64,000 nucleotides of DNA, taken from Pyxidicoccus parkwaysis. GTDB lineage: Bacteria; Myxococcota; Myxococcia; Myxococcales; Myxococcaceae. Numbering within the stretch: position 1 is the stretch's first letter; every line of letters starts with the position of its first letter. Below are positions 1-9,056 of this stretch, piece by piece. The translations under genes and the position numbers were made by a program. The DNA is taken from contig NZ_CP071090.1 of NCBI RefSeq assembly GCF_017301735.1, forward strand, positions 1,550,001 through 1,614,000, written 5' to 3'. The notes under the pieces are model-generated. The model searched no databases and was not told the origin of the DNA. It worked only from the letters and a program-made list of their open reading frames with translations.

Positions 1-18
1 GCGAGCCGTCCACCACTG

Positions 19-1086
19 CTACGGGTAGCAGGCCGCCTGGCGCAGATTCGTATCCTCGGGCAGGCCGAGGGCCACGTTGAAGTTCTGCACGGCCTGGCCG
101 GCCATGCCCTTCACCAGGTTGTCCAGCGCCGCCATGACGGCCACCGAGCGGCCCTTGGTGGCCACGGAGATGTCGCAGAAGTTGCTGCCCGCCACCGCGG
201 CGACGCGCGGCGTGCCCTCGACGATGCGGACGAACTTCGAGCCTTCGTAGTAGCGGCGGAACTTGTCCGTCAGCGACTGCGTCACCACCGCGCCGCCGTG
301 CTCCGGCCACTCGAACTGCACGGTGGCGAAGATGCCGCGCACCATGGGCGCCGAGTGCGGCACGAAGGCCAGCCGGTGCCGCTGCGCGCCATGCGCCACC
401 AGCATCACCTCCACCTCGGCCTCGTGCTGGTGCTCCAGCGGCTTGTACGCGCGGAAGTCGTGCGCGCGCGTCGGGTGGTGCGTGCCCTCGCCCGGCAGCG
501 AGCCGGAGCCGGACGAGCCCGTCACGCCAGAGACTGCCAGCAGCCCCAGGCCCGGCGTGGACGCAATCGGCAGCAGCGCGAGCTGCACCGCCGTCGCGAA
601 GCACCCCGGGTTGGCGATGCGCTTCGCCTTGGCGATGGCGTCGCGCTTCCACTCCGTGAGGCCGTACGTGAAGGTGCCCAGCAGGTCCGGAGCCGGGTGG
701 GGCCGGCCGTACGCGCCCGCGTAGCGGCCCGGGTGGTCCAACCGGAAGTCCGAGGACAAATCGATGAGCAGCACGCGCTCGGCGATGCCGGCGTCGGCCC
801 ACTTCTTCTCGATGTCGATGAACTGCTTCGCCAGCTCACCGTGGCCCAGCGCGCTGAACACCACCGGCTGCTGAGAGTCCGACAGCCAGCGCCAGTCCGG
901 CTCCGCCTCGAAGCGGCCGTCCACCAGCCCGCGCAGGTGCGGGTGCACCTTGTGGATGGGCTCGCCCGCATGGTGCCGCGACACCACGCGGATGCCGCCC
1001 ACCGCCGGATGTCCGGCGAGGATGCGCAAGAGCTCGCCTCCGCCGAAACCGGAGGCTCCCAGGATGTAGATGTTCGCCCGCGTCAT
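19..1086 (-). CDS. argC: N-acetyl(acyl)-gamma-glutamyl-phosphate reductase
   Basis: ArgC reduces N-acylglutamyl-5-phosphate to the semialdehyde with NADPH, the third step of arginine synthesis, in the cytoplasm. The N-terminus carries the Rossmann motif GASGFGGGE, and the catalytic cysteine lies in NPGCFAT near residue 160. The serine/glycine-rich GVTGSSGSGS stretch and a downstream HHPTRAHDF segment also match the family. At 355 residues it is full length. The ATG overlaps the stop of the upstream P-loop gene by four bases (ATGA), so translation is probably coupled. It is the last gene of the operon visible here. Whether the acyl group is acetyl or succinyl cannot be told from ArgC itself. 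Confidence 0.95.
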   Translation of the reverse strand: MTRANIYILGASGFGGGELLRILAGHPAVGGIRVVSRHHAGEPIHKVHPHLRGLVDGRFEAEPDWRWLSDSQQPVVFSALGHGELAKQFIDIEKKWADAGIAERVLLIDLSSDFRLDHPGRYAGAYGRPHPAPDLLGTFTYGLTEWKRDAIAKAKRIANPGCFATAVQLALLPIASTPGLGLLAVSGVTGSSGSGSLPGEGTHHPTRAHDFRAYKPLEHQHEAEVEVMLVAHGAQRHRLAFVPHSAPMVRGIFATVQFEWPEHGGAVVTQSLTDKFRRYYEGSKFVRIVEGTPRVAAVAGSNFCDISVATKGRSVAVMAALDNLVKGMAGQAVQNFNVALGLPEDTNLRQAACYP

Positions 1087-2144
1087 GACTTCCTCCCCGC
1101 GCCCAGCTTGGGCGCGAGCTTCTCCAGGAACAGCTTGCCCAGCGCAGCCGCATTCGCGCGTGCGTTGCGAGCGGGAATCCCCACCACCTGCTCCACGAAG
1201 CGCACGCCCACCGCGTTGTCCGTGGCCGGTCCCGCCACCACGTCCACGTCGATGCCGTACGTCTCACGCAGGTGCCGCACGCCGCCGGCGGCGCCCACCG
1301 GGTCGTTGGCGCACAGCACCCAGGCCCCCGCGAGGCTCTTCAGCTCCGCGTCCGCGAGGATGCCCTGCACGCCGTACTCACCCATGATGCCGTCGCCCGT
1401 CTCCGCGACGATGATGTCCACGTTCTCCGCCGCCAGCTCGGAGAAGAGCACCCGCGCCACGCGCGCTCCCGTGCGCGGGCCCGTGCAGACGACGCCCGCG
1501 TCGGTGAAGTCCATCACCACGTCCGCGCCGGAGTCCTGCATGCTCAGCGTGTCGCGCATCAGCGACACGCCCGTCAGCTTCGCGCCGCCCACGCGGTAGC
1601 CCGCCTGCGCCAGCGCGCGGACGATGACGCTGGCTGCGTACGTCTTGCCCGCGTTCATGCAGGTGCCGACGACGTAGATGACGGGGCACTTCACCGGGGT
1701 GGACGTGCCCTTCAGCGCGCCCGAGGTGACGTGCGCCGGCTGCCCGGTGCGCGACATCAGCTCCGGGAACTCCAGCACCTGGCCCAGGACTTCGGCCTCG
1801 AAGGGCATGCCCACGCCGGGGTTGTGCGAGGTGCACTTGCCGATGACGCCGCCCATGTTGAGCACGTTCAGCCGGTCGCCCACGGAGACGGACTCGGGCA
1901 CCACGCCCTCGTAGCCGTGCAGTGCGTTGCGGTGCCCCAGCGCGCCCACGACGATGTCGCCCGCGTGCAGGGTGACGAGGCGCCCGTGCGGGTCCTCAAG
2001 CTGGTTGTAGACGCTCTTCTCGCCGTGGATGCGCACGGCGACCACCGCGCCTTCTTCCGCCTTCACTTCCGGAGCCAGGTGCACCGTGCGGCCGAGGCCG
2101 AGGTTCCGGGTGACGCTACCCACCTTGTCGACGAAGACCTTCAT
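1083..2144 (-). CDS. P-loop protein of unknown function in the arginine operon (BioD/DUF1611-like)
   Basis: This 353-residue protein has an N-terminal domain of about 150 residues and then a P-loop (GTCMNAGKT, residues 160-168) spaced like the GTDxxxGKT loop of dethiobiotin synthetase and DUF1611 proteins. A later IIVAETGDGIMGEYG segment resembles the second conserved block of those families. It starts one base after the argG stop and overlaps argC by four bases, so it is a fixed member of the operon. The operon shows no argA, argJ or argD. From memory, one DUF1611 protein (DgcN) has been described as a D-glutamate N-acetyltransferase. N-acylation of glutamate is therefore a possible role here, but this is inference. 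A ligase or kinase role is equally open. Confidence 0.8.
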   Translation of the reverse strand: MKVFVDKVGSVTRNLGLGRTVHLAPEVKAEEGAVVAVRIHGEKSVYNQLEDPHGRLVTLHAGDIVVGALGHRNALHGYEGVVPESVSVGDRLNVLNMGGVIGKCTSHNPGVGMPFEAEVLGQVLEFPELMSRTGQPAHVTSGALKGTSTPVKCPVIYVVGTCMNAGKTYAASVIVRALAQAGYRVGGAKLTGVSLMRDTLSMQDSGADVVMDFTDAGVVCTGPRTGARVARVLFSELAAENVDIIVAETGDGIMGEYGVQGILADAELKSLAGAWVLCANDPVGAAGGVRHLRETYGIDVDVVAGPATDNAVGVRFVEQVVGIPARNARANAAALGKLFLEKLAPKLGAGRKS

Positions 2145-2145
2145 T

Positions 2146-3339
2146 TCAACCTCCCTTGGCCCGGTGAGAGAGCATCTGCGCCACGCCGTACAGCTTGGCG
2201 AAGCCCGCCGCTTCAGAACCCGTCCACAACACGTTGGCTTCCCCGTACGTCGCCACCTTCGCGTCCATCAGCGAGTGCGGCGACTTCACGCCCTCCACCA
2301 CCATCGTCCTGGGGTGGAGCACCAGCCGTACCTCGCCCGTCACGCGCTCCTGCGACGAGGTGAGGAACGCCTCCAGGTCCTTCACCAGCGGGTCGAAGAA
2401 GTGGCCCTCGTGCAGCAGCGAGCCGTAGAGGTTGCCCATCGACTCCTTCCAGAAGAGCTGCTTGCCGGACAGCACCAGCTTCTCCAGCTCGCGGTGCGAG
2501 GTGATGAGCAGGTGCGCCGCCGGCGCCTCGAAGCCCACGCGGCCCTTGATGCCGAGAATCGTGTCACCCAGGTGCACGCCGCGGCCGATGCCGTACGTGC
2601 GGCCGATGGCGTTGAGCGTCTCCACCAGCTTCACGGGCGACAGCTTCTCGCCGTCCAGCGCGGACGGGATGCCCTGCTCGAAGGAGAGGGTGAGCGTGCG
2701 GGGCTTCAGGTCCGTGGGAATGACGCCGCCGGGGAAGGCCGCCTCGGGTAGCGCGCTCCACGAGTCCAGCGTCTCCCGGCCGCCCACCGAGGTGCCCCAC
2801 ATGCCCTCGTTGACGGAGTAGGAGCCCAGCTTCGGGGGCATGTGGATGCCGCGCTCGGCGAGGAAGGACAGCTCCTGCTGCCGGCTGAGGCCCAGCGTGC
2901 GGATGGGCGTGAGCAGCTCCAGCTCCGGAGCGAGCGAGCGGAAGGCCACGTCGAAGCGGACCTGGTCATTGCCCGCGCCCGTGCTGCCGTGGGCAATGGC
3001 CTGCGCGCCCAGCTCGCGCGCCATGCGCACGGCCTCCACGGCCTGGCAGGCACGCTCGGCGGAGACGCTCAGCGGGTAGACCTGGCCGCGCAGCACGTTG
3101 CCGGCGATGAGGTAGCGCAGGTAGCCCTGGAAGAGGGTGTCGCGCGCGTCCACCGTGTGGTGCGCCACCGCGCCCAGCTTCGAGGACAGCGCCGCGATGT
3201 TGGCGAGCTGCTCGGGCGGGAAGCCGCCGGTGTCCACGGTGACAGTCGTCACGTTGTAGCCCTGCTCGCGCAGGTACACGGTGCAGAAAGCGGTATCGAG
3301 TCCGCCGGAGAAGGCCAGCACCACGTTCTTCTTGCTCAT
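2146..3339 (-). CDS. argG: Argininosuccinate synthase
   Basis: ArgG joins citrulline and aspartate with ATP to give argininosuccinate. The N-terminal PP-loop FSGGLDTAF and the GSTGAGNDQVRFD motif that binds ATP and citrulline are both present. I chose the ATG that follows GAGGAG at about six bases; the open frame extends 13 codons upstream without another good ribosome site. The protein is 397 residues. Several segments (VVLAFSGGLDT, GVHLGDTILGIKGRVGFEAPA) look, from memory, more like the argG of Bacteroidetes than of gammaproteobacteria. It lies 26 bases after argH and one base before the P-loop gene. Confidence 0.95.
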   Translation of the reverse strand: MSKKNVVLAFSGGLDTAFCTVYLREQGYNVTTVTVDTGGFPPEQLANIAALSSKLGAVAHHTVDARDTLFQGYLRYLIAGNVLRGQVYPLSVSAERACQAVEAVRMARELGAQAIAHGSTGAGNDQVRFDVAFRSLAPELELLTPIRTLGLSRQQELSFLAERGIHMPPKLGSYSVNEGMWGTSVGGRETLDSWSALPEAAFPGGVIPTDLKPRTLTLSFEQGIPSALDGEKLSPVKLVETLNAIGRTYGIGRGVHLGDTILGIKGRVGFEAPAAHLLITSHRELEKLVLSGKQLFWKESMGNLYGSLLHEGHFFDPLVKDLEAFLTSSQERVTGEVRLVLHPRTMVVEGVKSPHSLMDAKVATYGEANVLWTGSEAAGFAKLYGVAQMLSHRAKGG

Positions 3340-3365
3340 GTCGTCACTCCTCACGGGGAAGGGGT

Positions 3366-4715
3366 TCACAGCGCCCACACGCGCGCGGTGGCGGAGGCCA
3401 CGGCGCGGTGGGTGTCGTCGAGCCAGGCGCGCGCGGCGGCCAGCTCCTCGCGGGCCTGCGGCAGGCCCAGGTTTCCAGCGCCACCCAGGTGGGTGGCCGT
3501 CAGTGCGCCGCGGTCCGGATGGAACGTTCCGTCCGCGAGCTCTCGTCCCACCTGCCGGTACGCATCGCGGAAGGGCAGGCCCTTCGCCACCAGCGCGTAG
3601 GCGTGGTGGGCCGCGTACAGCGAGTCATCGCTGGCTCGCGCGGCCGCCTCTGCCTTCACCTGGAGCGCCGGCACCAGCCGGGCGAGCACGTCCAGCAGGT
3701 CCTTCATGGACGTCAGTCCCGCGAGGGTGGGGGACTTCAACAGCTGGAAGTCGCGGTGGTAGCTGGACGGCAGGCCACCGGCCACCGCCTCCACCTGATG
3801 TGCGATTCCACGCAGCTCGCGGCAGCGCCCGCGCGCCAGCTCCACCACGTCCGGGTTCTTCTTCTGCGGCATGATGGACGAGCCCGTGGTGTACGCGTCC
3901 GGCAGCGCGAGGAAGCCGAACTCGTCCATGCTGTAGAGCTGCACGTCCCACAGCCACTTCTCCAGCGTGCCCGCCACCGAGCAGGCCCAGCCCAGCACCG
4001 CCTGCTCGTGCCGGCCGCGGCCGTTCTGCACGTCGATGGGGCTGCGCTGCACCCGGCTGAAGCCGAGCAGCTTCGCCGTGTACTCGCGGTCGATGGGCAG
4101 CGGCACGCCGAAGCCCGCCGCCGCGCCGAGCGGGCAGCGGTCCAACCGCGCCCACACGCCACGCAGCGCCTCCAATTCCTCGAGCAGGCCCTCCGCGAAG
4201 GCCATGCCCCACAGGCCGAAGGTGGACGGCATGGCGCGGCGCAGGTGCGTGTAGCCGGGCAGGGCCACGGACGCGTGCGTCTGCGCGAAGTCGAGGAATG
4301 TCCCGGCCAGCTCCACCGTGCGCGCGCCGAGGGCGAGCACCTCTTCACGGAGGAACAGCCGCATGGCGAGCTGCACCTGATCATTGCGCGAGCGGGCCAG
4401 GTGGATGCGCTTGCCCGGCTCGCCGACGCGCTCCACGAGCGCGGCCTCGAGCGCGGTGTGGCCGTCCTCCTGCTCCGGGCGGATGTGGAACTGGCCGGCG
4501 CGCGCCTCGTCGTGCAGCGCCTTCAGCGCGGACACCAGGGCCTTCGCGTCGTCGGCGGGCAACAGGCCCACGTGCGCCAGCATCCGCGCGTGCGCGGCGC
4601 TGCCGAGCGCGTCATGCGGCGCGAGCGACAGGTCCACCACCGGGTCATTGCCCACGGTGAAGCGGTGGATGACCGCGTCCAGCGCCAGGCCCTTGCCCCA
4701 CAGGGTGTCAGCCAC
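3366..4715 (-). CDS. argH: Argininosuccinate lyase
   Basis: ArgH splits argininosuccinate into arginine and fumarate, the last step of the pathway. The fumarase/aspartase signature GSSIMPQKKNPD is intact, and the HTALE and ARSRNDQV blocks of the family are present. The chosen GTG start sits about six bases after GAGGAGG and lies inside the end of the upstream M20 gene (GTGGCTGA, eight-base overlap). An in-frame start 24 bases upstream is possible but has no better ribosome site. The product is 449 residues, normal for the family. Confidence 0.95.
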   Translation of the reverse strand: MADTLWGKGLALDAVIHRFTVGNDPVVDLSLAPHDALGSAAHARMLAHVGLLPADDAKALVSALKALHDEARAGQFHIRPEQEDGHTALEAALVERVGEPGKRIHLARSRNDQVQLAMRLFLREEVLALGARTVELAGTFLDFAQTHASVALPGYTHLRRAMPSTFGLWGMAFAEGLLEELEALRGVWARLDRCPLGAAAGFGVPLPIDREYTAKLLGFSRVQRSPIDVQNGRGRHEQAVLGWACSVAGTLEKWLWDVQLYSMDEFGFLALPDAYTTGSSIMPQKKNPDVVELARGRCRELRGIAHQVEAVAGGLPSSYHRDFQLLKSPTLAGLTSMKDLLDVLARLVPALQVKAEAAARASDDSLYAAHHAYALVAKGLPFRDAYRQVGRELADGTFHPDRGALTATHLGGAGNLGLPQAREELAAARAWLDDTHRAVASATARVWAL

Positions 4716-5769
4716 GGGCCACCTCCTCGAAGTAGCCACGCACCAGTCGCGTGTAGAAGGCGACGCCCGCTTCGAGCTCCGCCCGGGTGAGGTACTCGTC
4801 CGCCTGGTGGCTGCGCAGCGTGTCGCCAGGGCCCACCTTCACCGCCGGAAGGTCGCCCAGGAAGGCCCAGTCGGACGTGGTGCTGGAGCCCACCGGCTGC
4901 TCACCGGACGCGGCCATCGCGGCTCGGACGATGGGCTGATGCGACGCCGTCGCCTTCGGCAGGTATCGCGCCGAGTGCACCTGCACCTCGCTCTTCAGCG
5001 CACCCGCCAGCTGCTTCGCCACCGCCGCGTGGTCCATGGCCGGCGTGGTGCGCAGGTCCACGAAGAACTCGCACTTGTCCGGCACCTGGTTGCGCGCCAG
5101 CCCGCCGCTGATTTGCGTCACCTGAGCACGGGCCTCGCCCAGCAGCGGGTGCGAGGGGAAGCGCAGCTCCGAGAGAACGGAGATGTCCCCCGCCGCCAGG
5201 TGGATGGCGTTGAGGGCCTGCGTGCTGTTCGCGTGCGCCACGTGGCCGCTCTTGCCGTGCGCGGTGCAGCGCAGGAGCAGCATGCCCCGCTGCGCGGTGC
5301 ACGGCTTCAGGCTCGTGGGCTCGCCCACAATCGCCGCGTCCAGCGGCCCCAGCTCGGACAGCATCGTTCCCAGTCCCTGGCCTCCCGTCTCTTCCTCGGC
5401 GGTGAAGGCGAAGACCACCTCGCCTCCAGTGGGTGCTCCCTCTTTCAACAGGGTGCGGGCGGTGAGGAGCATCCCCGCCACGCAGCCCTTCGCGTCGTTG
5501 CTGCCCAGGCCGTAGAGCCGGTCCTCGCGCCACTCGGGCGCGTGCGGCGCGTACGTCCACCCGGCGTTGGGCTTCACCGTGTCCACGTGCGAGTTGACGA
5601 GCAGCCGGCGCGGCCCGCTGCCAACGGAGAACCACACGTTGTGGCCCTTCCGCTGGACGCGCGCGCCCCAGCCCTCGGCCCACCCGGACACGGTGTCCGC
5701 GATGCGACCCTCGTCACCCGACACGCTGGGGATGGCGACCAGCGCCTGGAGCAGCTCCGCCGCGTTCAT
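4708..5769 (-). CDS. M20-family N-acyl-amino-acid deacylase (ArgE-like, probable N-acylcitrulline deacylase)
   Basis: This 353-residue zinc amidohydrolase has the M20 ligands in order: NSHVDTV, GSNDAKG, the TAEEETGG pair with the catalytic glutamate, VGEPT, and a late histidine in RSHQADEY. It is shorter than E. coli ArgE and is closer in size to the deacylases in acyl-ornithine carbamoyltransferase operons and to LysK. Because the operon's carbamoyltransferase should make N-acylcitrulline, the natural role is removal of the acyl group before ArgG. It overlaps argB by four bases upstream and argH by eight bases downstream. Whether the substrate is N-acetyl or N-succinyl is undecided. Confidence 0.85.
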   Translation of the reverse strand: MNAAELLQALVAIPSVSGDEGRIADTVSGWAEGWGARVQRKGHNVWFSVGSGPRRLLVNSHVDTVKPNAGWTYAPHAPEWREDRLYGLGSNDAKGCVAGMLLTARTLLKEGAPTGGEVVFAFTAEEETGGQGLGTMLSELGPLDAAIVGEPTSLKPCTAQRGMLLLRCTAHGKSGHVAHANSTQALNAIHLAAGDISVLSELRFPSHPLLGEARAQVTQISGGLARNQVPDKCEFFVDLRTTPAMDHAAVAKQLAGALKSEVQVHSARYLPKATASHQPIVRAAMAASGEQPVGSSTTSDWAFLGDLPAVKVGPGDTLRSHQADEYLTRAELEAGVAFYTRLVRGYFEEVARG

Positions 5770-6692
5770 CCCACGGCCCCGGCCGGTTTCGGCGCGGACT
5801 CGCGCACCACCATGGTGCCGCTGCCCTCGTTGGTGAAGACCTCCTCCAGGAGCGCGTTGGGCATCACGCCGCTGACGAGGTGCACGCTGCCCACGCCGCC
5901 CACGAGCGCGTGGCGGATGGCGTGCGCCTTGGGCCGCATGCCGCCGGAGATGGCGCCCGTGTTCTCCATGGTGGCCAGGTCCGTCAGGTTGGCGAGCGTG
6001 ACGAGCGACGTCGGGTCGCTGACGTTGCGGAGCAGGCCCGGCACCTCGACGAGGAAGAAGAGCTTCTCCGCCGACAGCGCCACCGCGAGCGCCGCGGCCA
6101 CGGTGTCCGCGTTGGTGTTGTAGACGGCGCCGTCGGGGCCGCCGGACAGGGGCGCCACCACCGGCACGTAGTCCGCCGCGCGCAGGTGCTCCACCACGCG
6201 CGTGTCCACCGACTCGATGTCGCCCACGAGGCCGTAGTCCACGAGCCGGCCCTCGGGAGCGCCGGGTTCGGTCACCATGACGGGAGGACGCTTGCGCGCC
6301 TTGATGAGGCCCGCGTCCACGCCGCTCAGGCCCACGGAGGGCACGCCCGCCGCCTGGAGGTCCGCCAGGAGGTCCGTGTGCAGCTTGCCCGCGAGCACCA
6401 TCTTCGCCGCGTCCAGCACGGGCGCGGAGGTGACGCGGCGGCCCGCCACCTTCTCGATGGGCAGGTGGAGCGCGTCACACAGCGTGTCCAATTCCGGGCC
6501 GCCGCCGTGAACGACGATGGGGCGGATGGAGAAGGTCCACAGCAGGGCGATCTGCTCGCACGCGGAGCGGCGCAGCTTCGGGTCGCTCAGCATGGCGCCG
6601 CCGAGCTTGATGACGAACGTCTTGCGGCGGAACTGCTGCACGTAGCGCGCGGCGTGACGGAGCGCGGAGTACGGGTCGGGAGACAGGGGCAC
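5766..6692 (-). CDS. argB: N-acetyl(acyl)glutamate kinase
   Basis: ArgB phosphorylates the gamma-carboxylate of N-acylglutamate with ATP. The amino-acid-kinase fold is clear: KLGGAML near residue 28, VVHGGGPELD, a NADTVAAALAVAL segment, and a C-terminal GGMRPK followed by TNEGSGTMV. At 308 residues it has a short N-terminal extension of about 25 residues. An N-terminal helix of this kind occurs in arginine-sensitive hexameric NAGKs, so feedback inhibition by arginine is plausible. There is no fused GNAT domain, unlike Xanthomonas ArgB/A. Its ATG start lies 51 bases after argF'. Confidence 0.93.
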   Translation of the reverse strand: MPLSPDPYSALRHAARYVQQFRRKTFVIKLGGAMLSDPKLRRSACEQIALLWTFSIRPIVVHGGGPELDTLCDALHLPIEKVAGRRVTSAPVLDAAKMVLAGKLHTDLLADLQAAGVPSVGLSGVDAGLIKARKRPPVMVTEPGAPEGRLVDYGLVGDIESVDTRVVEHLRAADYVPVVAPLSGGPDGAVYNTNADTVAAALAVALSAEKLFFLVEVPGLLRNVSDPTSLVTLANLTDLATMENTGAISGGMRPKAHAIRHALVGGVGSVHLVSGVMPNALLEEVFTNEGSGTMVVRESAPKPAGAVG

Positions 6693-6743
6693 GGAGCACC
6701 TCGAAAAAGGAAGAAAGAGAAGGCGGGCTCTGCTGCGCGGCTT

Positions 6744-7757
6744 CTAGCGCGAGTGCGAGCGCATCCAGTGGAGGAGGGCGCGCTGGACGTGGTAGCGGTT
6801 GCCCGCCTCGTCCACCACGCGGCTGCTCTTGTGGTCCAGCACCTCGTCGGCCACCTCCACGTTGCGCCGCACGGGCAGGCAGTGGAGGAAGGCCGCGTCC
6901 TTCGCGGCGCGGGACATGGTGCGCAGCGTGGGCATCCACCCGGAGTAGGACGCGAGCAGCGCGGTGACGTCATTGGGCGAGTACGCCGCCGCCGCCGACG
7001 GGCCCCACGACTTGGCGTACACCGCGCGGCTGCCGGCGAGCGCCTCGTCCTGGTCATGCGTGTACGTCACGCTGCCGCCGGTGGCCTTCGCGTAGGCCTC
7101 GGCCTCGGCGCGCACTGCGGGGTGCAATTCGAAGCCGGGAGGGTGCGCCACGCGCACCTCGCAGCCGGCGGCCGCGGCGCTGAGGAGGAAGGAGTTGGGG
7201 ACGGCCTTGGGCAGCGGCTTGATGTGCGGCGCCCAGGTGAGCGTCACCGGCAGCTTCTTGGTGCTGCCGAACGTCTCGCGCAGGGTGAGCACGTCCGCGA
7301 GGCCCTGGCAGGGGTGCTCGCGCGCGGACTCCATGCTGACCACGGGGACGGTGGCCCACTTTCGGAACGCGCCGATGATGGGGTCGACCTCGTCCTCCTC
7401 GTCACCGCCGCCCTGCGAGAAGGTCCGCACGCCGAGCATGTCCACGAAGCGCGAGAGGACGGGCGCGGCCTCCTTGAGGTGCTCGGCCCGGTCCGCGTTC
7501 ATCACCGCGCCCTCGCGGTGCTCGAGCTTCCACACGCCCGCGCCCACGTCGAGGATGATGGCGTTGCCGCCGCCGCGCAGCATGACGGCCTCGAACGAGG
7601 TGCGCGTGCGCAGGGACGGGTTGAAGAACACCATGCCCAGGATGCTGCCCGGGAACAGCGGCTGGCTCGGACCCTTGAACTTCCACGCGGCCGCCTGCGC
7701 GAGCACCGCCTCGACGCCCTCGGGCCCGAGGTCCTGGATGTGGGTGACGTGCTTCAT
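6744..7757 (-). CDS. argF': N-acylornithine carbamoyltransferase (acetyl- or succinyl-ornithine transcarbamylase)
   Basis: This 337-residue transcarbamylase carries the carbamoyl-phosphate motif FFNPSLRTRTSFE, then EHPCQ, and HCLPVRRNV near the C-terminus. The RRNV extension of HCLP, with the TWAPH and AVPNS segments, marks the acyl-ornithine subfamily rather than classical ArgF. The overall text resembles Bacteroides succinylornithine transcarbamylase as I remember it (VWKLE, MNADRAEHL, TWAPHIKPLP). At the residue deciding acetyl versus succinyl in characterised enzymes (Glu92/Pro90) this protein has Ala91. The ATG follows GGAG at about nine bases. It is the first gene of the operon and faces argR across the ARG-box region. 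Confidence 0.9.
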   Translation of the reverse strand: MKHVTHIQDLGPEGVEAVLAQAAAWKFKGPSQPLFPGSILGMVFFNPSLRTRTSFEAVMLRGGGNAIILDVGAGVWKLEHREGAVMNADRAEHLKEAAPVLSRFVDMLGVRTFSQGGGDEEDEVDPIIGAFRKWATVPVVSMESAREHPCQGLADVLTLRETFGSTKKLPVTLTWAPHIKPLPKAVPNSFLLSAAAAGCEVRVAHPPGFELHPAVRAEAEAYAKATGGSVTYTHDQDEALAGSRAVYAKSWGPSAAAAYSPNDVTALLASYSGWMPTLRTMSRAAKDAAFLHCLPVRRNVEVADEVLDHKSSRVVDEAGNRYHVQRALLHWMRSHSR

Positions 7758-7938
7758 GGGCCTGTGCTCCAACCGGCTGCTGGCCGGATGCATGGGTGGG
7801 TGAATATGCACGAAAATGCGTGCATCCTCTTTGGGAGGCGCGGATAATATGCAAGAAGACGCAGCGCGCAAGCCTCTTGTTCCCAAAATCTTCATGCAGG
7901 CCCTTGCATGAATATTCACGCAAATGCATGGTGGGTGA
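7758..7938. promoter_or_regulatory. Divergent argF'/argR control region with ARG-box-like palindromes
   Basis: This 181-base gap separates the arginine operon from argR and is far more AT-rich than its surroundings. It holds repeated TGCA, GAAT and ATTCA elements. The best are TGCACG-N6-CGTGCA (7807-7824), CATGCA-N6-TGCATG (7893-7910) and TGCATGAATATTCACGCA (7905-7922), the last being an 18-base near-palindrome with one mismatch per half. Bacterial ArgR binds 18-bp imperfect palindromes of TNTGAAT type in pairs, so these are probable operators for arginine-dependent repression and argR autoregulation. Confidence 0.7.
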
Positions 7939-8361
7939 ATGAACCTGGATGAGACCATCCTGAGGCTCATCTCCGAGCGGGAGATCAGTGATCAGGCGGT
8001 GTTACAGGAGCTGCTTGAGGCGGAGGGCGAGGCTCCGAGCCAGTCCACGCTGTCGCGGCGGCTGAAGAAGCTGGGTGTGCAGAAGGTGGCGGGGCGGTAT
8101 CAGCGGGTGGAGACGCCGCCCGTGGTGGCGCCCGCGAGGCCGTGGCTGCGGATCACGGAAGCGCCGCCGAACCTGTTGGTGCTGAAGACGGCGCCCGGCT
8201 ACGCGCAGATATTCGCGCTGGCGTTGGACCGCGAGCCGGACGTGCCCGGGCTCGCCGGCACGGTGGCGGGAGACGACACGATTTTCGTCGCGGTGACGGA
8301 CCCATCGCGGCTGCGCGAGGTGCGCGAGGCCGTGGAGGAGTTGATGTCGCGGGGGACGTGA
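7939..8361 (+). CDS. argR: Arginine repressor ArgR
   Basis: ArgR is a hexameric winged-helix regulator that binds ARG boxes when loaded with arginine. Residues 1-65 form the DNA-binding domain, with recognition text SQSTLSRRLKKL. The C-terminal domain ends with AGTVAGDDTIFVAV, close to the GTIAGDDT arginine-binding motif of the family. At 140 residues it is slightly short but complete. Divergent placement against the arginine operon with palindromes between them supports local control. The ATG has only a weak upstream GGTGGG ribosome site. Confidence 0.95.
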   Translation: MNLDETILRLISEREISDQAVLQELLEAEGEAPSQSTLSRRLKKLGVQKVAGRYQRVETPPVVAPARPWLRITEAPPNLLVLKTAPGYAQIFALALDREPDVPGLAGTVAGDDTIFVAVTDPSRLREVREAVEELMSRGT

Positions 8362-8404
8362 GGCGCGGGGGCTTGCGCCCGGTGGATTTCGGGGACAACC
8401 TGTA

Positions 8405-8429
8405 GGGGCGGGCGGAAGCCTTCCGCCCC
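8405..8429. terminator. GC-rich hairpin downstream of argR
   Basis: GGGCGGAAG and CTTCCGCCC form a perfect nine-base inverted repeat around one base (8410-8428). It sits 40-70 bases after the argR stop. No T-tract follows, so a terminator role is only suggested. Confidence 0.35.
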
Positions 8430-8501
8430 AGGACGTCAGACCCCGGTGTTATCTCCGCGTGCATGGAACTGGAGACGGGCGTTGGGGAACATGGGCGGAG
8501 C

Positions 8502-9056
8502 ATGGAACGGAAACGGGCGACCTACGCGGACCTGGAGGCGCTTCCCGACAATGTGATTGGGGAGCTCATCGACGGGGTGCTGTACGCCAGTCCCCGGCCG
8601 GCGGGGCCGCACACGGTGGTGGGCTCACAGCTCGGCTACGAGTTGATTGGTCCGTTCGACAGGGGAAGAGGCGGCCCCGGAGGCTGGGTCATTCTCGATG
8701 AACCCGAGCTGCACCTGGGCGAGGACGTCCTCGTTCCCGACGTGGCGGGCTGGCGTCGCGAGCGGATGCCCAGGCCCACGGAGCATGTGTTCTACACCGT
8801 CGCGCCGGACTGGCTCTGCGAGGTGCTGTCCCCGTCCACGAGGAACCTGGACCGGAAGGAGAAGCTCCCCGTCTACGCGCGCGAGGGCGTGCGGCACGTC
8901 TGGTTGATCGACCCCAAGCCGCGCGTGCTGGAGGTGTTTCGCCTGGGGCCCGGGGGGTACGAGCTGCTCGCCACGCATGAGGGGAATGGCCCGGTCCGGG
9001 CGGAGCCCTTCGAGGCCATCGAGCTGGACCTCGCCTTTCTCTGGGACGAGCGTTAG
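8502..9056 (+). CDS. Uma2 family protein (DUF820, PD-(D/E)XK nuclease fold)
   Basis: This 184-residue protein matches the Uma2/DUF820 family: an N-terminal YADLEALPDNV-GELIDG block, a central LVPDVAGWRRER, and a CEVLSPSTR...LPVYAREGVRHVWLIDP block. The family has a restriction-endonuclease-like fold, and the Asp of VPD, the Glu of CEV and the following Lys fit that active site. Its biological role is not established. The ATG chosen directly precedes the conserved N-terminus; an ATG 39 bases upstream is also possible. It stands alone between argR and the VWA operon. Confidence 0.85.
   Translation: MERKRATYADLEALPDNVIGELIDGVLYASPRPAGPHTVVGSQLGYELIGPFDRGRGGPGGWVILDEPELHLGEDVLVPDVAGWRRERMPRPTEHVFYTVAPDWLCEVLSPSTRNLDRKEKLPVYAREGVRHVWLIDPKPRVLEVFRLGPGGYELLATHEGNGPVRAEPFEAIELDLAFLWDER

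Follow-up and report, generated by a model that had tools for sequence, protein, structure and literature searches.

It is likely that the arginine operon at one end of a 64,000-nucleotide stretch of the Pyxidicoccus parkwaysis genome (contig NZ_CP071090.1, positions 1,550,001 to 1,614,000; hereafter the window, whose own positions are used unless a locus or the genome is named) encodes a succinylated pathway of the Bacteroides kind, in which the first step is taken by a P-loop protein of a new, non-GNAT family. The operon covers all the arginine steps but ArgD and the first step, in the minus-strand order argF', argB, M20 deacylase gene, argH, argG, P-loop gene, argC. The basis for this view is the specificity residues of the carbamoyltransferase, synteny, the mutual exclusion of the P-loop gene and ArgJ, and phylogeny, and from these we infer the succinyl group, the function and chemistry of the P-loop protein, and the location of ArgD.

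Succinyl-type residues in the carbamoyltransferase

The argF' product, a 337-residue open reading frame (ORF; 7757..6744, minus strand), is predicted to be an acyl-ornithine carbamoyltransferase (acyl-OTC) of the N-succinylornithine type, and its residue 91 is alanine (codon GCC, 7485..7487, minus strand), within VMNADRAEHLKE. In a phmmer comparison with PDB sequences, Ala91 pairs with Glu92 of the X. campestris N-acetylornithine carbamoyltransferase (AOTCase; 3kzc) with no gap nearby, and the top match, narrowly ahead of further AOTCase mutants, is 3l02, titled an E92A mutant. The original prediction had placed alanine at the acetyl/succinyl specificity position, and alignment to the crystal-structure sequences keeps it there; its Glu92, with position 90 as the counterpart, also agrees with the literature and with the PDB titles. 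According to a review (PMC4581275), AOTCase is characterized by Glu92, Asn185 and Lys302, and N-succinylornithine carbamoyltransferase (SOTCase) by A/S/P/V/Q, P and V/I/E at the same sites. One position suffices to switch specificity, S, P, A or V there giving a succinyl preference, according to PMC7311316. The PDB titles include E92A, E92S, E92P and E92V mutants of the X. campestris enzyme crystallised with 'N-succinyl-L-nor...' and the SOTCase P90E mutant with 'N-ac...'. With Ala91, Pro183 (7209..7211, minus strand; the AOTCase Asn185 position) and Glu301 (6855..6857, minus strand; the AOTCase Lys302 position), the last two coordinates being calculated from the residue numbers, the window enzyme agrees with the SOTCase rule at three of three sites and with the AOTCase rule at none of the three. 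The same A/P/E combination is found in each of the 44 acyl-OTCs that the window's family contributes to a sample of 146 Myxococcota genomes. On sequence grounds, the window enzyme is more likely to prefer N-succinylornithine.

The enzyme scores 440 bits against NCBIfam PRK04523 (cut-off 288), and its predicted model (predicted local distance difference test score, pLDDT, 96.0) can be laid over AOTCase structures with 325-331 residues matched at 1.4-1.5 Å. Other acyl-OTC motifs are present (PHIKPLPKAVP, SLRT, HPCQ, HCLP, and Trp76 of the 80's loop); they are common to AOTCase and thus do not discriminate. The only second OTCace_N match in the 13.2-Mb genome, at 4.56 Mb, is an ORF that reads as aspartate carbamoyltransferase, so the window enzyme is the sole ornithine-type enzyme found. 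A scan of viral contigs for acyl-OTC gave no match. The neighbouring M20 deacylase (argE, 4708..5769, minus strand; Pfam M20), a predicted N-succinylcitrulline desuccinylase, scores 209 bits to the M20 enzyme of the Bernardetia operon versus 80 to Xanthomonas ArgE; no NCBIfam model was above its cut-off among the 25 of 46 matches listed.

A conserved P-loop protein between argG and argC

The candidate N-succinylglutamate synthase is a 353-residue protein encoded at 1083..2144 (minus strand), a conserved member of the operon whose gene begins directly downstream of the argG stop codon and shares 4 bases with argC. This gene, standing where the first enzyme would be expected, is what makes the locus unusual, and the original prediction made no mention of it. 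The scores of the protein against NCBIfam families all fall short of the cut-offs. Alignment of 72 P-loop protein rows, from which the 29%-identical protein P0007 of genome G019 was excluded as another family, gives 56 invariant columns, including G160, M163, G166, K167 and T168 of the Walker A motif GTCMNAGKT (residues 160-168; 1641..1667, minus strand). In the predicted model (pLDDT 95.0, predicted template modelling score 0.92), a mostly beta region is followed by a P-loop region. The latter matches the folds of CTP synthase (Z 16.9), dethiobiotin synthetase (15.5), HypB (14.9) and signal recognition particle (SRP) GTPases (14-15), and, within the same narrow range as CTP synthase, the DUF1611 proteins 2g0t (Z 16.2) and 2obn (Z 15.3) and DgcN (7xrj, Z 14.5). 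The likeness to the dethiobiotin synthetase and CTP synthase ligases lies in the C-terminal domain (Z 14-17 over about 176-195 residues), and unlike them, at 12-17% identity, the P-loop protein has an additional, mostly beta N-terminal part. A sequence search for solved relatives found only dethiobiotin synthetase P-loops, at E-values of 0.2-0.9. As modeled, the fold is compatible with transfer from acyl-CoA and also with a ligation driven by ATP.

DgcN, an N-acetyltransferase of D-glutamate use, has a P-loop C-terminal domain of similar fold, aligned from residue 98 on, and the reaction proposed for the P-loop protein is likewise a glutamate N-acylation. We take DgcN to be a DUF1611 member, the comparison here having shown just shared sequence. 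Pfam DUF1611 (PF07755, gathering threshold 25) scores 23.2 bits on the protein and 24.6-25.1 in six-frame translation, over about 44 P-loop positions only. That the P-loop protein is a plain DgcN/DUF1611 member was rejected: hhalign to DgcN rows gives 6% probability, over the P-loop only. Unlike DgcN itself, it has no match to NF041892 (curated score 480 bits), a family absent from the six that the protein matches at E-values up to 0.1. The genome has a true DgcN (530.9 bits, cut-off 480) paired with DgcA (485.3 bits, cut-off 400) at L229:2928-4979, about 91 kb from the operon. Because hhalign finds the P-loop only, and because the genome has this separate DgcN-DgcA pair, the P-loop protein is not established as DgcN. 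No description of the P-loop family was found in literature titles and abstract openings, a search with subscription papers mostly outside its scope.

P-loop loci across phyla

Genome contigs scanned with a seven-row P-loop alignment yielded at least 592 candidate stretches, at least 473 of which encode a relative; the best 80 of these were retained. By record title these 80 loci belong to Planctomycetota (20), Gemmatimonadota (20), Acidobacteriota (10), Pseudomonadota (7), Myxococcota (6), Elusimicrobiota (5) and Armatimonadota (5), with three single phyla (one archaeal) and four unplaced. P-loop relatives thus titled lie in arginine clusters of nine bacterial phyla, mostly in metagenome-assembled genomes (MAGs), some with apparently wrong labels. 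The contigs titled Klebsiella pneumoniae MAG (L092), Woesearchaeota (L156) and Singulisphaera sp. GP187 (L150) are possibly mislabelled or from mixed bins.

Near the P-loop gene, argC is found in 78 of the 80 loci, argG in 74, argB in 69, an argF-like ORF in 66, argR in 59, argH in 56 and argE in 55, many contigs ending early. Forty-seven loci have the full set of argB, C, E, F', G and H; 40 of these have the order argG-P-loop gene-argC-(gap)-argF'-argB-argE-argH, and the other seven have the order of the window. The gap between argC and argF' measures 1.0-1.4 kb in 45 of the 80 loci. Eight gap genes were tested, six from the argC-argF' gap, one beside argR and one between argG and argB, and the best matches of all eight are argD/acetylornithine transaminase models, all under their curated cut-offs. 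Four of these eight loci (L089, L106, L136 and L152) also contain all six other arginine genes; steps 2-8 are therefore complete in them, and the P-loop gene is the extra. A search for GNAT in the P-loop loci examined gave no match, and ArgJ was found in one of the 80 P-loop-locus genomes (0/50 and 1/30, their completeness not being stated).

Among the 66 argF ORFs, 65 are readable (L125, with 53 residues aligned, was omitted), and position 92 is occupied by Ala in 34, Val in 18, Pro in six, Ser in three, Thr in two, Gln in two and Glu in none. Fifty-nine of the 65 agree with the succinyl rule at all three sites, and the 80's-loop tryptophan is kept in 63.

More distant homologues stand elsewhere. 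Proteins about 30% identical, annotated DUF1611, are encoded next to an ATP-binding cassette transporter ATP-binding gene on plasmids of Sulfitobacter (L234) and Paracoccus (L235); no arginine gene annotation appears within the 12.8 kb viewed. On the Priestia megaterium plasmid NZ_CP085446.1 (L236, 2682-11370), a 28% homologue is clustered with an ornithine carbamoyltransferase, two ATP-grasp proteins, two thiamine-pyrophosphate enzyme parts, an M20 peptidase and a phosphoenolpyruvate (PEP) mutase family protein. PEP mutase clusters make phosphonates, and L236 looks like a phosphonate natural-product cluster with the trio of carbamoyltransferase, P-loop protein and deacylase recurring in it.

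Distribution in the Myxococcota and the missing first step

Which gene, then, provides the first step? ArgJ was not found in the window's genome, and no classical ArgA match there is above the cut-off. Matches to ArgA below the cut-off are the operon argB, a [LysW]-aminoadipate kinase and a GNAT ORF; the last, a faint match (21.4 bits) at 12.645 Mb of the genome, has no NCBIfam family at E-values up to 1e-8. The Bacteroidota GNAT synthase, searched for with the Persicobacter protein, was not found in the window's genome, and the query recovers itself and three of three other Bacteroidota records. A Bernardetia GNAT query, in a search without a positive control, found nothing in the 146 Myxococcota genomes.

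The same 146 genomes were searched with NF003384 (acyl-OTC), the P-loop protein and ArgJ, counting as strong a P-loop match with an E-value below 1e-80; five weak matches (9.6e-23 to 4.8e-4) were not counted. A strong P-loop match is present in 50 genomes, ArgJ in 56 and both in none, an exclusion with Fisher p of 1.8e-14 by genome and 0.0035 by genus, values to be read with the non-independence of related genomes in mind. In the window's family (65 genomes), 44 have the P-loop gene with acyl-OTC, and 19 of the 21 others have ArgJ. The remaining two, G088 and G138, are 98% complete and yielded neither ArgJ nor the P-loop gene; they are possibly arginine auxotrophs or users of a further variant of the first step. 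All 25 sampled genomes of the window's genus have the P-loop gene, and M. xanthus is likely among them. According to PMC5801462, A1 minimal medium supports growth of M. xanthus DK1622, and a mutant disrupted in argE (DW2636; MXAN_1012, the presumed orthologue of the window argE) requires arginine; from prototrophy on A1 it follows that the first step should exist in that genus.

Acyl-OTC is above the cut-off in 58 of the 146 genomes, 48 of which have the P-loop gene. None of these 48 acyl-OTCs has Glu92: 44 are A/P/E, and the others are T/P/E, V/P/K, V/A/K and V/A/K. Six Myxococcota genomes with E/N/K have neither the P-loop gene nor ArgJ; five of them encode a full bifunctional ArgA-ArgB fusion, and the sixth, G057, has a partial kinase match only. 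The four remaining genomes of the 58 encode carbamoyltransferases of a different group, which lack the discriminating loops and were set aside. The sequences excluded from the Glu92 tallies were L075, L076 and L078-L081 (G013, G031, G035, G039, G042; four of these genomes are among the 58), L077 and L082-L084. Against the acyl-OTC model, L075, L076 and L078-L081 reach about 285-300 bits; their 80's loop is shortened by a four-residue gap, the HPKPLP loop is absent, and SPSVHKPRAVPQ-type letters stand in place of the proline-rich loop, motifs that fit neither AOTCase, SOTCase nor canonical ornithine carbamoyltransferase.

Phylogeny and relation to known pathways

Two trees of the carbamoyltransferases were made: a careful one of 58 chosen enzymes rooted on three canonical ones, which took in 44 of the 72 P-loop rows and avoided long and fragmentary ones, and a quick one of 88 rows, in which B. 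finegoldii is counted twice. The Glu92 enzymes form one clade in both (support 99/99 in the careful tree, 98 in the quick tree). In the careful tree the Bacteroidota enzymes group with those of the P-loop operons and are nested among them in the best tree. The support for this grouping is 90/74 and is not starred. Trees of argE, argB and argG, made with no outgroup, place the ArgA-ArgB group on one side of a branch and leave the position of the Bacteroidota unsettled.

The Bernardetia and Persicobacter operons have the order GNAT-argG-argC-argD-argF'-argB-M20-argH, the argD being annotated as a class III aminotransferase, and the gene order of the P-loop operons is nearly the same, minus the GNAT and plus the P-loop gene between argG and argC. 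The Bacteroides pathway, as described in PMC7311316, PMC4581275 and PMC9026213, comprises SOTCase (ArgF3), ArgB, ArgA2 (BT3761) and a desuccinylase candidate, BT3549; the GNAT protein ArgA2 is proposed as N-succinylglutamate synthase, with genetic support (PMC9026213 and PMC7311316). The window operon resembles it in the non-Glu residue at position 90/92, the Pro and the V/I/E residue at the other two sites, and the M20 deacylase, and differs from it in that no ArgA2 GNAT was found and an unrelated P-loop protein is in its place, in the lysine at the Arg178 position, and in having alanine at position 91 versus Pro or Gln in the four Bacteroidota enzymes compared. With the Xanthomonas AOTCase pathway it shares acyl-ornithine carbamoylation and the overall fold of the carbamoyltransferase, but that pathway combines Glu92/Asn185/Lys302 with a bifunctional ArgA-ArgB, and the window combines A/P/E with the P-loop gene.

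Discussion

How would such a pathway work? The P-loop protein would N-succinylate L-glutamate, ArgB would phosphorylate and ArgC reduce the product, an ArgD encoded elsewhere would transaminate the succinylated intermediate, the Ala91 enzyme would carbamoylate N-succinylornithine, and the M20 deacylase would desuccinylate N-succinylcitrulline, leaving ArgG and ArgH to finish. Ala91, together with Pro183 and Glu301, would provide space for the succinyl carboxylate, the same carboxylate that Glu92 of AOTCase would exclude. The P-loop chemistry could be a succinyl-CoA-dependent transfer, as by DgcN with acetyl, or a ligation of succinate that depends on ATP, which a fold like that of dethiobiotin synthetase would permit; in the latter case the protein would be a ligase and take succinate in place of succinyl-CoA.

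From its position and distribution, the P-loop protein probably performs the otherwise missing first step. The balance of evidence tips slightly towards a broader claim, that it founds a class of N-acyl-(succinyl-)glutamate synthases, neither GNAT nor ArgJ, that starts arginine biosynthesis in many phyla, among them Myxococcota, Planctomycetota, Gemmatimonadota, Acidobacteriota, Elusimicrobiota and Armatimonadota. The Bacteroidota GNAT may have come in later as a substitute. Pathway annotations repeatedly lack the first enzyme of arginine biosynthesis (PMC7311316, PMC9026213). If our interpretation is true, glutamate N-acylation gains a new enzyme class, succinylated arginine synthesis is widespread, well beyond the Bacteroidota, and one could predict arginine prototrophy in parts of several phyla represented largely by MAGs and in relatives of the model bacterium M. 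xanthus. Entries named N-acetylornithine carbamoyltransferase may then need a new name where position 92 is Ala, Val, Pro, Ser or Gln.

A number of observations, here and under the first two alternatives below, weigh against the succinylated pathway. The overall identity of the window enzyme is nearly equal to the Xanthomonas (39%) and Bernardetia (38%) enzymes. The original prediction had described the rest of its text as Bacteroides-like, a description that fits the discriminating residues and the neighbouring deacylase and does not fit overall identity or the fold match. Of the succinyl anchors of B. fragilis SOTCase (H176, R178 and R278), the histidine and the RRN arginines are retained, and Arg178 is replaced by lysine (HIKP, versus HPRP in B. 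finegoldii). Six of the 65 acyl-OTCs of P-loop loci depart from the three-site rule, three deeper Myxococcota with the P-loop gene retain Lys302, two of them also having Ala185, and another has Thr92. The contrast between Glu92 enzymes and those of P-loop genomes rests on one evolutionary split. The P-loop group as a single clade was not rejected in the careful tree (approximately unbiased test, p-AU 0.186), and in the quick tree, which otherwise gives the same picture, the P-loop-operon enzymes L131 and L156, both absent from the careful tree, are placed apart from the group containing the Bacteroidota. Four of the five weak P-loop matches are in ArgJ genomes, and the 'Woesearchaeota' MAG of L156 contains both the P-loop gene and ArgJ.

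An alternative that we regard as unlikely is that an unlinked GNAT or other enzyme performs the first step and that the P-loop protein is, for example, a nucleotide-dependent ligase, a chaperone or a pathway regulator. An unlinked synthase that goes unrecognised may have escaped the searches, and the GNAT ORF at 12.645 Mb with its faint ArgA match is a conceivable candidate. The P-loop domain would fit many functions about equally well, resembling as it does CTP synthase, dethiobiotin synthetase, HypB and SRP GTPases, and in sequence the protein is related to DgcN in the P-loop only. However, the near-perfect exclusion of ArgJ by the P-loop gene is not what would be expected of a mere accessory; the P-loop gene is found without ArgJ even in G030 and G034, which have no acyl-OTC above the cut-off and in which it lies at a contig end; and the 47 full loci have few further same-strand gaps longer than 350 bases besides the argD-like one (L092, L110, L126).

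Quite unlikely, too, is an acetyl pathway, in which the P-loop protein would make N-acetylglutamate and the carbamoyltransferase would use N-acetylornithine despite Ala91. The window enzyme scores above the cut-off of an NCBIfam equivalog named N-acetylornithine carbamoyltransferase, its model matches AOTCase better than SOTCase (Z 47.2 versus 40.4), AOTCases being the closest solved structures, and DgcN, the one fold relative with a stated acyl-transfer function, is titled an N-acetyltransferase. Acyl-OTC was above the cut-off in none of seven genomes with the P-loop gene (those of L099, L109, L117, L134 and L142, with G030 and G034; L134 and G034 are the same assembly), and since the gene is present in such genomes, it is not bound to a succinyl-type carbamoyltransferase; the acyl group may be removed there prior to carbamoylation. 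Against an acetyl pathway, the three discriminating residues are all of the succinyl type, the deacylase is nearer the Bacteroidota enzyme, and Glu92 is found in none of the 65 P-loop-linked acyl-OTCs, versus all six E/N/K Myxococcota enzymes and the X. sacchari AOTCases. The acetyl name carries little weight because the B. finegoldii enzyme, with Pro at the specificity site, is also annotated as acetylornithine carbamoyltransferase.

That the Ala91 enzyme is broad, or serves free ornithine or another acyl group, so that no single acyl chemistry defines the operon, is very improbable. In its favour, a small residue such as alanine imposes few restrictions, the genome yielded no separate ornithine carbamoyltransferase, and the LysW-type genes there mean that other amino-group protection exists in the cell; against it, the acyl-OTC proline-rich loop and 80's-loop tryptophan are retained, Pro183 and Glu301 are likewise conserved in the family, and the operon has a dedicated deacylase.

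The succinylated pathway had been extended tentatively to the whole operon by the original prediction. The three residues, the likeness of the deacylase, the Bacteroidota gene order and the failure to find a known acetyl-type first enzyme in the genome all favour that extension and the predicted use of succinylated substrates.

Other features of the operon and genome

The remaining genes of the operon, all on the minus strand, are argB (5766..6692), encoding N-acylglutamate kinase (TIGR00761, 201.6 bits, cut-off 151.3); argH (3366..4739), argininosuccinate lyase (TIGR00838, 301.9 bits, cut-off 279.5); argG (2146..3378), argininosuccinate synthase (TIGR00032, 307.8 bits, cut-off 268.2); and argC (19..1086), N-acyl-gamma-glutamyl-phosphate reductase (TIGR01850, 323.2 bits, cut-off 233.6). 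The listed start of argG is GTG, and an in-frame ATG 13 codons downstream is the likelier start. Scanning positions 1-9000 of the window with Rfam at the gathering threshold gave no match.

A second ArgB-like gene at 8.475 Mb of the genome is a [LysW]-aminoadipate kinase above the cut-off. It belongs to a LysW-type lysine cluster at 8.47 Mb (L238:4047-10862). Also encoded there are an M20 protein resembling [LysW]-lysine hydrolase (351.5 bits, cut-off 363), an ArgC-like protein and a small zinc-ribbon ORF ending in EEDWGE, which we take to be the LysW C-terminal signature.

Divergent from argF' lies an ArgR-like repressor gene (7939..8361, plus strand), whose product is above the Pfam cut-offs for Arg_repressor and Arg_repressor_C and scores 86.8 bits against TIGR01529, under its cut-off of 130.45. 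Between the two genes, at 7801..7930 (no strand assigned), are ARG-box-like repeats (TGAATATKCACG...) that presumably form the ArgR operator. The E. coli ARG-box consensus TGAATWWWWATTCA has two overlapping matches with 2-3 mismatches in the 64 kb, where 0.30 are expected; five of 100 shuffles equal this count.

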